Assembly: GCF_964355755.1 (NCBI RefSeq)
Contig: NC_092676.1
Coordinates: forward strand, 19,576,288-19,640,287
Direction of reading: 5' to 3'
DNA length: 64,000 bases
Source of the DNA: Antedon mediterranea
Taxonomy: Eukaryota; Echinodermata; Crinoidea; Comatulida; Antedonidae
In this document: in pieces, positions 2,615 to 62,780 of the stretch
Layout: the number at the start of each line of letters is the position of its first letter
Position numbering within the stretch: the stretch's first letter is position 1
Translations under genes and position numbers: made by a program
Notes under the pieces: generated by a model
Told to the model about the DNA's origin: nothing
Databases searched by the model: none
The model's input: only the letters and a program-made list of their open reading frames with translations

Positions 2615-3206
2615 ATGCCATCATCACCTCCGAAGTGTGCGTGTCCGGAACAACCAAAGGAAAATAGTATCCTCTTTTCATTGTTATCAACACCACCAGC
2701 AGAAGACCATACTAGTAAAGAGACGTCAGTTGCGTACCCAACAACACAGCTCGTAGACTCCATACTTAAACGTACATCACGGTTACAACCTCCCGTTGTT
2801 GTGGCACTACGGTACCCAGAATTAGTATGCCAGCAAGCAGCTCAACTTCTTTTAAAAACTGTAGATTTCGTTAAAGCCTTACCATCATGCAGCTGTTTAA
2901 GTTCAAAAGATCGTGCGCTTCTTTTGAAGCACTGCTGGGCGGAACTCTTGTTAATAAGCATGACCAAATATCGATTCCGATTTGAAATTATTGAGTATAT
3001 ATTATGCTGCGATTGTGCAAACACCACAGACTCGTGCTGTGAAATGTCCAACGAGAGTATTGTGATGAAGTGTCTAGCAGCACTTCAAGGCATTCCAACA
3101 AAATCGGACATTCAATTGATGGACAGTTTTTTCACCCGATGCGAAACGATGGAACTTGACGATAAAGAATATGCATTTCTACAGTCAGCAATTTTGTTTA
3201 ATCCAG
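2615..3206 (+). CDS. NR0B: NR0B (DAX1/SHP-like) orphan nuclear receptor, coding exon 1
   Basis: Exon 1 encodes residues 1-197 plus one base of a 276-residue nuclear receptor without a DNA-binding domain. NR0B proteins are known as nuclear corepressors that bind other receptors such as NR5A members through LxxLL-like motifs. Residues 8-24 form the typical N-terminal module: Cys8-x-Cys10, nine residues, then the LxxLL motif Leu20-Phe-Ser-Leu-Leu24. The ligand-binding domain starts near residue 60. The helix 3-5 signature lies at about 82-114 and includes KTVDFVKALP and LLLKHCWAELLL. The exon ends in AILFNP at the donor gtatgt (3207), phase 1. No C4 zinc finger lies upstream. The ATG has G at -3, and a likely acceptor (tttgtctttcag) ends at 2594, so a 5' non-coding exon is possible. 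An in-frame stop at 2558-2560 limits upstream extension. At 276 residues it is close to SHP (about 257) and shorter than DAX1 (about 470). Confidence 0.9.
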
Positions 3207-13999: not shown

Positions 14000-15138
14000 A
14001 AACACATACAGTACACATAGAAACACATACAGTACACATAGAAACACATACAGTACACATAGAAACACATACAGTACACATAGAAACACATACAGTACAC
14101 ATAGAAACACATAGAGTACACATAGAAACACATAGAGTACACATAGAAACACATAGAGTACACATAGAAACACATAGAGTACACATAGAAACACATACAG
14201 TACACATAGAAACACATACAGTACACATAGAAATACATACAGTACACATAGAAACACATACAGTACACATAGAAACACATACAGTACACATAGAAACACA
14301 TACAGTACACATAGAAACACATACAGTACACATAGAAACACATACAGTACACATAGAAACACATACAGTACACATAGAAACACATAAAAACACATACAGT
14401 ACACATAGAAACACATACAGTACACATAGAAACACATACAGTACACATAGAAACACATACAATACACATAGAAACACATACAGTACACATAGAAACACAT
14501 ACAGTACACATAGAAACACATACAGTACACATAGAAACACATACAGTACACATAGAAACACATACAGTACACATAGAAACACATACAGTACACATAGAAA
14601 CACATACAGTACACATAGAAACACATACAGTACACATAGAAACACATACAGTACACATAGAAACACATACAGTACACATAGAAACACATACAGTACACAT
14701 AGAAACACATACAGTACACATAGAAACACATACAGTACACATAGAAACACATACAGTACACATAGAAACACATACAGTACACATAGAAACATATACAGTA
14801 CACATAGAAACACATACAGTACACATAGAAACACATACAGTACACATAGAAACACATACAGTACACATAGAAACACATACAGTACACATAGAAACACATA
14901 CAGTACACATAGAAACACATACAGTACACATAGAAACACATACAGTACACATACAGTACACATAGAAACACATACAGTACACATAGAAACACATACAGTA
15001 CACATAGAAACACATACAGTACACATAGAAACACATACAGTACACATAGAAATACATACAGTACACATAGAAACACATACAGTACACATAGAAACACATA
15101 CAGTACACATAGAAACACATACAGTACACATAGAAACA
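14000..15138. repeat. 21-bp minisatellite, about 54 units
   Basis: The unit is AAACACATACAG followed by TACACATAG. It repeats almost without change over 1.14 kb. Variant units cluster: four consecutive copies at about 14108-14190 read CACATAGAG instead of CACATACAG, and single units carry AAATACATAC or CATATACAG. Two length breaks, near 14385 (extra AAAAACACAT) and 14950 (extra ACAGTACACAT), shift the phase. Because 21 is divisible by three, long frames stay open on both strands (for example repeats of Thr-Val-His-Ile-Glu-Thr-His). These are by-products and not genes. Confidence 0.97.
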
Positions 15139-36424: not shown

Positions 36425-36494
36425 ATTTGCATAATATATTCAAGGTCGTCTGCTCTATGAGGTCATGCATGTCACCTAGTGCTAGCTTATAAAA
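36425..36494 (+). promoter_or_regulatory. Compact putative internal promoter: octamer, NR5A site, IR6, TATA
   Basis: In 70 bp the sequence shows ATTTGCAT (octamer, 36425-36432), TCAAGGTCG (extended NR5A/SF-1 half-site, 36440-36448), AGGTCA-n6-TCACCT (inverted nuclear-receptor repeat, 36460-36477) and TATAAAA (36488-36494). The order and spacing fit a TATA promoter starting near 36518, about 350 bp before the ATG at 36868. NR5A receptors are known activators of vertebrate NR0B1 and NR0B2, so this is consistent with family biology. The leader would hold a 19-codon upstream ORF (36600-36656) and an acceptor-like TCTTTTCAG ending near 36840. Function is inferred. Confidence 0.5.
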
Positions 36495-36867
36495 CTGCGG
36501 ATGATAAGGTTTGACTACAAAGTAGCAAGGACGCATTGGTTATTGAACAGTGTGTAGTGTGCTCTCTCATAGATATCATCATTATACCGGTGAACATAGA
36601 TGACAGTTGATTGCAATAGGAGTCGTTGGCCTTTTAACACAATCAATACATATTGAGGGAGCTCTAGGCACACACTATCTTCTGAAGGCAAATAGGAAAA
36701 ACCTAATAGGCATTTTATACATTGGTGGATCTTGACACTTTTGGAAAATCTTTCTGCAAATTATAATTGGTGGTGAACCTTGATTTGTTGTGGAGGAGTT
36801 TGTTCGTAAGAGCAATTATTTTGTGAGTGGTCTTTTCAGGTCCACGGAGAACATTTAAAATAGCAGA

Positions 36868-37158
36868 ATGTCTGCAGCTACAGCCGAAAAGGGGCCTATT
36901 CACATGTCTGTGGTACAGTTTCACAGATCGTCTAAGTTAGAAAAACAACTAAGAGCGACGGAAATTTACAAAATTCATGGAACATGTCAATGTCCAAAAA
37001 TCGACTCTAAAAGTACAATTCTGTACCGATTACTAACAGACACTTATTTTAACTCAAACTCTTGTTGTCGGAGCGGTTGTGGATTTTGCTCATCCGCCGC
37101 AGAGAGTAAATTAAAACTTTTACTAGAAGAGTCAAAGAAACATCACCTTTTGCAATAA
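36868..37158 (+). CDS. NR0B N-terminal-domain-only protein or alternative NR0B first exon (96 aa)
   Basis: This 96-residue frame contains Cys40-x-Cys42, nine residues, then ILYRLLT with the LxxLL motif at 52-56. The order and the nine-residue gap equal those in NR0B exon 1 and in the N-terminus of vertebrate SHP and the DAX1 repeats. A second unit follows: Cys66, Cys67, Cys71 and Cys74, then LKLLL (82-86), also an LxxLL. The frame has no ligand-binding or zinc-finger domain and ends KKHHLLQ. The ATG has A at -3. A donor-like A|GTAAAT at 37106 leaves phase 1, which would splice in frame to NR0B exon 2 (39393) and give a 158-residue product lacking helices 1-7. Without splicing it is a small, basic, Cys-rich LxxLL peptide. 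Homology to the NR0B N-terminus is clear from spacing. Which transcript exists is inference. Confidence 0.7.
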   Translation: MSAATAEKGPIHMSVVQFHRSSKLEKQLRATEIYKIHGTCQCPKIDSKSTILYRLLTDTYFNSNSCCRSGCGFCSSAAESKLKLLLEESKKHHLLQ

Positions 37159-38171
37159 TTTATGGTACTTTCTTTTTAAAGCAGTCACTATGTCAAGTAG
37201 GTATAATAAATTATACATTTTTTTTTTATTCATTCATACAACCAAAATTAGAACATGGCGTTTTCTGTTTCTCACTTTAAGCCCATGACGTGTCACACTC
37301 GCTTTCCAGAGGCAAACATTATAAAACTATTTCTTAATTTGTAGGTACAGATACAGATCTTAAATGAGCTTGTAGTTTCCATAGCTAAAGCTTCTGTTCA
37401 CTATTCCTCTACTTTAAATATCATTTTCTATTCCTATTTTGTTTGTTACAATTTTTATTTAGCAATTTCCTATAACATTTTGTACATTAATTTTTTTGTG
37501 GACAATACAGCAGATTGTGAATGTTTTAGTTTAAGAAAAAAAACCGTTATTATTATATCCCTGACTTTGGTAATTAAATACTGTATTAACAACAATTATG
37601 AAACTCAATTTAAATTGCAAATTTCAAATCTCGCCTTCTTTTACATCATCAACAGAAACCTGTTGATTTTGATATTTTCCCATTGATATTGTGATTGGAA
37701 AGTTCAGAAATAACATGAAAGAAAATTGTCTACAACAAGATTTAATGAATCAAAATATATGGCTTTGTTTAACAGTGAATGCTAGTTACACATACTATTA
37801 AATATACAATATGAACCATTAAATTTAATACTATAAATGCATATAAATATTTATGATCTGATGTATACCGTATTATTAATTTATTTATTATTAAGATGTA
37901 AATTTTAGAAAACCATCTTATAAATCTGGCAGGATTCCACTGTAATACGTGACTGACTTTGCATAGACACTCTTTTATATAACAGTAACACTTACTGTAG
38001 CTGTATAACGATATCTATTGTATATATGATTGTACAAATAAATACATTCTATTGTAAGTTATTCTCTAGAATATATACTGCACTGTAATCCTGCCATTAT
38101 CAGTACAATTAAAGTATTTAAAGAGATTTCCCATAAATAGATATCTCACTTATTCAATCCACAATAGTGGA

Positions 38172-39392: not shown

Positions 39393-39631
39393 ATGTACCA
39401 GGCTTGGAAAATCCCCTGTTGGTTGAAAGATTGCAAAGCAGTGTTCAGCTTCATCTGAATGAATATGTAGCTGCCAAACATCCATATGATCAGCTTCGCT
39501 TTGCAAGAATCCTCCTTAGTCTGCCACCGCTACGAAACATAAAAGCTCAAGTAGTTACGCAGTTGTTCTTCCGTGACATGATAGGCAACGTTGCTATGGA
39601 GGACTTGTTATCACAGATGTTACAAGGGTAG
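39393..39631 (+). CDS. NR0B: NR0B (DAX1/SHP-like) orphan nuclear receptor, coding exon 2
   Basis: Exon 2 completes the receptor with residues 198-276. It begins D-VPGLENPLL, directly continuing AILFNP of exon 1 across the conserved phase-1 junction. FARILLSLPPLRNIKAQVV corresponds to helices 9-10. QLFFRDMIGNVAMEDLLSQM covers helices 11-12 and is very close to the LFFRPIIG...M pattern that ends vertebrate DAX1 and SHP. The terminal MEDLLSQML is the AF-2/helix 12 region. The protein stops two residues later at TAG (39629). The same exon could also be the 3' partner of the alternative first exon at 36868. Confidence 0.92.
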
Positions 39632-61772: not shown

Positions 61773-62312
61773 TACAAGATACAAGATACAAGAAGATACA
61801 AGAAAACTTTATTCATCCCAACTTGGGAAATTGTGTTGCTGTCTAATAACAATGCCGTATTTAAAAGAGAAATGATAGGCCTAATACATAAGTGTGATAA
61901 TAATAATAATAACAATAAAAGTGTATCGTAATAAATTTCCCTATCTTTGATACCTTTCATTATAGTCTTGTATGCCCCTTGGGAGGAAGGAGAGACGATG
62001 GCGTTCAGTGGATCCCCGTGGCGGCCTCAGTCTACCACTACGTTCCATAAGGCAGTCGGCAATGTCCGAGTTAAGGGGATGACTAACATCATTCCATATC
62101 ACTCTAAACATATTGCGCAACCGTTCATGATAGACCGAGTCCACCACGGGTAATTCACATCCAACTATCCTCCCTGCCCTCCTCACCAACCTGTCTATTT
62201 TATCCCTATCAACCTTACCAACATTCCCACCCCAACCCAACAGACAATATCCCCAAACAGAACTAATCACTGACAAATAAAACATCCTAAGGATGTGGCT
62301 ATCAACATTTAT
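61773..62312 (-). mobile_element. Non-LTR retrotransposon (LINE) 3' fragment
   Basis: On the minus strand a frame from about 62312 to the stop at 61941 (114 codons from its first ATG at 62285) shows the C-terminus of a LINE reverse transcriptase: GWGGN, RLVRRAGRIVG, VSHPL, SGRLRPPRGSTERHR, SFLPRGIQDYN. These match the pattern CWGGN-x-LVKKAG-x-SHPL-x-R-x-SF-P-AI-YN seen in many animal LINEs. The 3'UTR ends with GATGAATAAAG and a (TTGTATC)n tail at about 61773-61800, in place of poly-A. It is a 5'-truncated insertion. The remaining C-terminal frame is intact, suggesting fairly recent arrival. Confidence 0.8.
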
Positions 62313-62780
62313 TTTAATATTTTTTTTTTATATTTCGTCAACACCGTTGGTTTAATTTAGCTCGTCAAACATTAAATGGGCCTATTAAATTGTTTAGATT
62401 AACTTATTTATTTGGTAACATACATGATAGTTATGTTTATTGATTGTAAAAGATTTGTAAAAATTGTTATGATTGAATTTGACTTGTTTTTTTAGTTTAA
62501 AACTATAGAGGACGTACTTTAAATGGTGTAGAATTATAGAAAAATAAATACAAGTGTGTTTACAAAATAAAACAACACAAAAATATCATGAGAATATGCT
62601 ATTTACTAATATAAATGGAAAAAAAAAATGAAAAAATGGAGACTTATAGTAAAAAACAAACAAACAGTAAATAATAGACCTAAGCCTAGGCCTAGTAGGC
62701 CTAGTTTAAATAATTTGTTTGTTTGTTATCTATAGGGGGCGTACTGTCTCTTTTTTTAATTGACTCATGGGATATCCAAA

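Follow-up and report, generated by a model that had tools for sequence, protein, structure and literature searches.

A small two-LxxLL frame in the NR0B intron of Antedon mediterranea and its likeness to the NR0B N-terminal docking module

The NR0B gene and the small frame in its intron

The window, which is the whole 64,000-nucleotide stretch of Antedon mediterranea DNA that was analysed, contains the two coding exons of an NR0B gene and, on the same strand within the intron between them, a small open frame that is located 2.2 kb 5' of exon 2. The features of the two coding regions are as follows.

2615 to 3206, + strand: NR0B coding exon 1, in which the module of NR0B itself, CACPEQPKENSILFSLLS, begins at 2636
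3207 to 39392, + strand: NR0B intron of about 36 kb hosting the small gene, donor CAG/GTATGT
36868 to 37158, + strand: coding frame of the small protein (P0001), 96 amino acids followed by TAA, with homologues P0002 and P0014
36985 to 37053, + strand: block A, the NR0B-like module CQCPKIDSKSTILYRLLTDTYFN, residues 40-62, with the NR box LYRLL at 37021-37035
37102 to 37140, + strand: block B, ESKLKLLLEESKK, residues 79-91, with the second LxxLL (LKLLL) at 37111-37125
39393 to 39631, + strand: NR0B coding exon 2, where the phase-1 junction restores ...LFNP-DVPGL...

Joining of exons 1 and 2 across the phase-1 junction results in a protein of 276 residues with a hormone-receptor ligand-binding domain (LBD; PF00104, Pfam E value of 1.1e-19), for which NR0B1 and NR0B2 are the best solved relatives. 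The NR0B1-like protein of Anneissia japonica (P0003) is 96% identical to the NR0B of the window, and a database search showed clear NR0B to be present in crinoid, brittle star, two sea stars and sea urchin. The intron donor of NR0B ranks 2 of 3534 GT sites in our home-made splice scores, which are rough, as seen from the true acceptor of NR0B exon 2, ranked only 188 of 2949. By the same scores a strong acceptor, TTTTCATTTGTCTTTCAG, is positioned at 2577-2595 (rank 11 of 2949), 20 bases 5' of the NR0B start codon, indicating that a 5'UTR exon probably precedes the first coding exon. With an acceptor just before the start codon, one 5' exon common to NR0B and the small protein and alternatively used is also thinkable.

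The module of the small frame, CQCPKIDSKSTILYRLLT, and that of NR0B exon 1 have one layout, CQCP-KIDSKST-ILYRLLT in the former and CACP-EQPKENS-ILFSLLS in the latter, with identical spacing and eight residues from CxC to IL in both. Strict and loose (8-9 residues) patterns of this module, composed only after the match was known, each have exactly two matches across the six reading frames of the window, one in NR0B exon 1 and one in the small frame, and none in 200 dinucleotide-shuffled windows. Beyond the module, P0001 contains a second Cys cluster and the LKLLL string, and then stops without an LBD. The first-pass annotation had described a repeat of the NR0B exon 1 module with identical spacing over nine residues, followed by a second Cys-cluster/LxxLL unit and a stop without any LBD. 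The spacing is indeed identical, with eight residues instead of nine, and the second cluster, its LxxLL and the stop are present as described, whereas the view that block B repeats block A is unsupported, since 23 of 200 column shuffles score as well. The length of P0001 is unremarkable, as a stop-to-stop frame of 113 residues lies about 190 bases 3' of it; no support was found for this downstream frame.

Homologues and conservation of the small protein

A whole-database search (5.8 billion sequences) with the P0001 frame gave a single match, P0002 (116 amino acids, E 1.4e-10), with 60% identity over 62 aligned columns in the C-terminal part, and residues 53-116 of P0002 matched P0014 (105 amino acids, E 2.7e-21). 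These searches reach relatives that have several 5-residue words in common with the query and a length of 53-168 residues for P0001 or 64-203 residues for P0002. No Anneissia japonica copy of P0001 was found among database proteins of 53-168 amino acids, though the NR0B of this species is present. P0002 and P0014 are closest to each other, with 78% identity over the searched region, and judging from this likeness may count as one lineage. Their names are uninformative (one is a "hypothetical protein" and the other is unnamed), and their starts and ends are those of the database entries, from source contigs of at most 2.7 and 2.2 kb (jgi, lgn). Phage records, viral contigs and prokaryote contigs contained no relative of the small protein, and a two-sequence profile (A1) found no relative in the PDB up to an E value of 10. 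The Pfam scan of P0001 and P0002 resulted in sub-cutoff matches only, with no LBD, P0014 has no precomputed Pfam domain, and Rfam found nothing in the 64-kb window.

Alignment of P0001, P0002 and P0014, a comparison at the protein level, shows the reading frame to be conserved in both homologues. All three have an MSxA start, preceded by MYI in P0002, all contain CxCPxIDSKSxILYRLLTDxYxN and ESKLKxLLEESKK, and each ends five residues beyond the last shared KK of block B. Residues identical in all three number 18 of 23 in block A and 12 of 13 in block B, as against 7 of 39 for the N-terminus, 2 of 16 for the linker and 0 of 5 for the tail. Such concentration in the two LxxLL blocks is the pattern expected from selection on the protein. 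The LxxLL motifs are conserved in 3 of 3 proteins and fall in helical segments of an AlphaFold model of the small protein, a low-confidence model (mean pLDDT 49.8) in which the only helices, 48-57 and 81-94, correspond to the two boxes. Helices predicted to be confined to the boxes are what docking motifs embedded in disordered sequence would be expected to show. Each of the three proteins also has at least four Cys residues, which would fit conserved blocks that serve some other purpose, such as Cys-based metal binding or interaction with a different partner, the LxxLL strings, common in general, being incidental helices. We regard such a purpose as improbable, since both conserved blocks are centred on an LxxLL, the first with the docking layout of NR0B, and of the linker Cys residues just one is aligned in all three proteins.

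Two further readings, both raised in the first-pass annotation, tie the small frame to NR0B itself and are disfavored by these comparisons. As an alternative first coding exon of NR0B, the small frame would be spliced to exon 2 at 39393, and a GT at 37106 is in the right phase for this (phase 1, by counting). This donor is weak, however, with a rank of 664 of 3534, the larger part of block B, which is the best conserved region, lies beyond it and is followed by the protein end in all three sequences, and the product would be without most of the LBD; such use of the frame is very improbable. A cassette exon between NR0B exons 1 and 2 was likewise set aside, as phase-1 entry at 36840 reads another frame and then meets a stop (by eye). 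The module likeness and the position within NR0B would also be explained if the frame were what decay has left of a tandemly duplicated NR0B, a reading that we hold to be scarcely credible. The start and stop of the frame are intact, key residues are kept relative to P0002 and P0014 while the remainder has diverged, and tblastn of NR0B proteins against the 64-kb window returned the two known exons, weak module matches in the small frame and otherwise scattered matches at chance level, with no remnant of a second LBD. Origin of the small gene from a duplicated 5' part of NR0B is possible. Homologues with the same end, the absence of an LBD and the block-concentrated identity together make it very probable that the small protein is a conserved stand-alone protein, neither a relic nor an NR0B N-terminus. 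The earlier proposal of a separate small LxxLL protein has gained strong support from two homologues that likewise stand alone and end at the same place.

Relation to NR0B and possible function

The small protein is not an NR0B receptor, as the LBD is absent. The hormone-receptor match of PF00104 is found in neither P0001 nor P0002, and the phase-1 intron within the LBD, which is conserved across the NR0B family and present in the NR0B of the window, is absent from what is a single open frame with a stop and no LBD. Leaving descent aside, the protein does possess the NR0B-type N-terminal docking module C-x-C...ILYxLL, with C-x-C-P and, eight residues from CxC, IL[YF]xLL as in ten echinoderm NR0B N-termini. 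It differs from NR0B (DAX1/NR0B1 and SHP/NR0B2) in being only about 100 residues long, with its own stop, no LBD at the Pfam cutoff and its own frame in the NR0B intron, and its second conserved LxxLL block is unlike the NR0B module. In a search with a hidden Markov model (HMM) of the ten echinoderm NR0B N-termini, the small frame came second only to NR0B among 2046 window frames, with an E value of 0.057, and an unrelated frame was third with an E value of 0.079. In the reverse search with the small-protein profile, NR0B exon 1 was twelfth in the list with an E value of only 2.3. We count these weak values against the explanation that we favor below. Comparison of the NR0B-module profile with the small-protein profile in hhalign resulted in a score of 35.1 and a probability of 96%, with a maximum of 15.8 for column shuffles (n=200). 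When the ILYRLL columns were kept fixed the maximum was 31.7 and none of 300 shuffles reached the observed score, indicating that the match includes the Cys-Pro lead-in and its spacing in addition to the LxxLL. As judged from these profiles, the module of the small protein is similar to that of NR0B beyond LxxLL.

This similarity is confined to about 22 residues, and the same layout could be shared by a small two-LxxLL receptor-docking protein that does not descend from NR0B and has arrived at C-x-C-P...ILYxLL convergently, by adapting to the same surface of the receptor. Convergence would be in keeping with so short a match and its modest HMM values in both directions, with the lack of any LBD or LBD remnant and with a block B that is not demonstrably module-derived. 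It is opposed by the match of both Cys residues, proline and spacing outside the core, as seen in the core-fixed shuffles, and by the location of the gene in the NR0B intron, and we consider convergence unlikely while giving it real weight.

The explanation that we favor, with somewhat better than an even chance of being correct, is a small nested gene with a mostly disordered two-NR-box product that competes at receptor AF-2 grooves. The usual view of an NR0B repressor is that of an LBD protein to which a docking tail is attached at the N-terminus. The product of the small gene, of about 100 residues, would be mostly disordered with two short helices, each bearing an LxxLL NR box, and the first box, C-x-C-P...ILYRLLT, is laid out exactly as in the N-terminal docking module of NR0B. 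Either or both boxes may occupy the AF-2 groove of receptors that are bound by NR0B, where they would keep out coactivators or NR0B itself. From what is generally known of DAX1 and SHP, NR5A or HNF4-type receptors are the first candidates. LxxLL-like boxes are a further likeness to NR0B, and in excerpts of two papers such motifs of SHP and DAX1 are described as binding other receptors and repressing them, with SHP targeting AF-2 domains (PMC3346990, PMC4649613). By analogy, the small protein may work like the NR0B N-terminus. Because an NR0B LBD is absent, neither NR0B-style dimerisation nor LBD-based corepressor recruitment would be available to it, which suggests the role of a competitive attenuator; by the same analogy, attenuation at AF-2 grooves seems the most economical reading. 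Expression of the small protein, the identity of its receptors, its binding to them and their repression are what we infer within this explanation.

SRC and RIP140 are NR-box coregulators, and multiple LxxLL boxes in disordered sequence are, from general knowledge, a feature that the small protein has in common with them. In contrast to these coregulators, it is far smaller, is without an enzymatic or platform domain and has the NR0B-type Cys-Pro lead-in. NR0A receptors, with a DBD only, are similar in that a piece of the receptor family exists without the other domains, but NR0A retains the DBD, whereas the small protein has neither DBD nor LBD. The NR0A (knirps-type) group is listed in an excerpt of PMC7827873. 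Among the matches listed from the open-licence literature, no title or abstract start refers to an LBD-less NR0B-like protein, and such genes would tend to escape annotation by being short and intronic. A bolder proposal, which we put forward tentatively and regard as doubtful, is that of an unnamed animal mini-protein family, comprising at least one crinoid and two additional sequences, in which a free two-box NR0B docking peptide is nested in the intron of the repressor as a built-in NR0B competitor, one ancestral module having either been split from NR0B or been fused to an LBD at the origin of NR0B. A conserved protein made up of the docking module only would serve naturally as a competitive inhibitor, with its code inside the gene of the repressor that it resembles, and would bear on the origin of the NR0B N-terminus.

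Flanking elements and other features of the window

The surroundings of the small frame contain several candidate elements, among which the TATA-like element, the AATAAA and the half-sites are no more than suggestive.

36440 to 36448, TCAAGGTCG, and 36460 to 36467, AGGTCATG, + strand: putative NR5A/ERR-like half-sites, 5' of the TATA-like element
36488 to 36494, + strand: TATA-like TATAAAA, a candidate core promoter, weak alone, since the + strand of the window has 45 TATAAAR
36590 to 36839, + strand: possible 5'UTR intron, speculative, with donor CCG/GTGAAC and acceptor CTTTTCAG/G (acceptor rank 56 of 2949)
37205 to 37210, + strand: AATAAA, a candidate polyadenylation signal 47 bases past the stop codon, common by chance in AT-rich DNA

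The half-site strings at 36440 and 36460, together with TCAAGGTCR, are ones that we take to be NR5A/ERR-like. YCAAGGTCR is found 8 times in the window (4576, 6766, 27245, 36440, 53872, 56692, 58686 and 61447) compared with 0.91 expected from dinucleotide shuffles, none of 100 shuffles reaching 8, and the flanks of these sites have no evident common repeat by eye. The excess of TCAAGGTCR is window-wide and not just at the small gene, and the string at 36460 is only slightly in excess, with its count reached by 3 of 100 shuffles. Removal of the speculative intron at 36590-36839 would take out an upstream ATG at 36600. The best-scoring acceptor of 36450-37160 is at 37103 (rank 8 of 2949), inside the frame where block B begins; we read it as chance and all the same count it against the favored explanation. 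The local G+C content at the small gene is 0.35-0.40 compared with 0.30 in the intron; taken singly, this difference and each of the candidate elements are weak indications.

Elsewhere in the window, a donor at position 442 scores highly in the home-made splice scores. An open frame at 61941-62327 on the - strand has no Pfam match and presumably resembles the C-terminal portion of the reverse transcriptase of non-LTR retrotransposons. The region 14000-15138 is a tandem array of 27.6 copies of a 42-base unit, giving long open frames of repetitive sequence on each strand.
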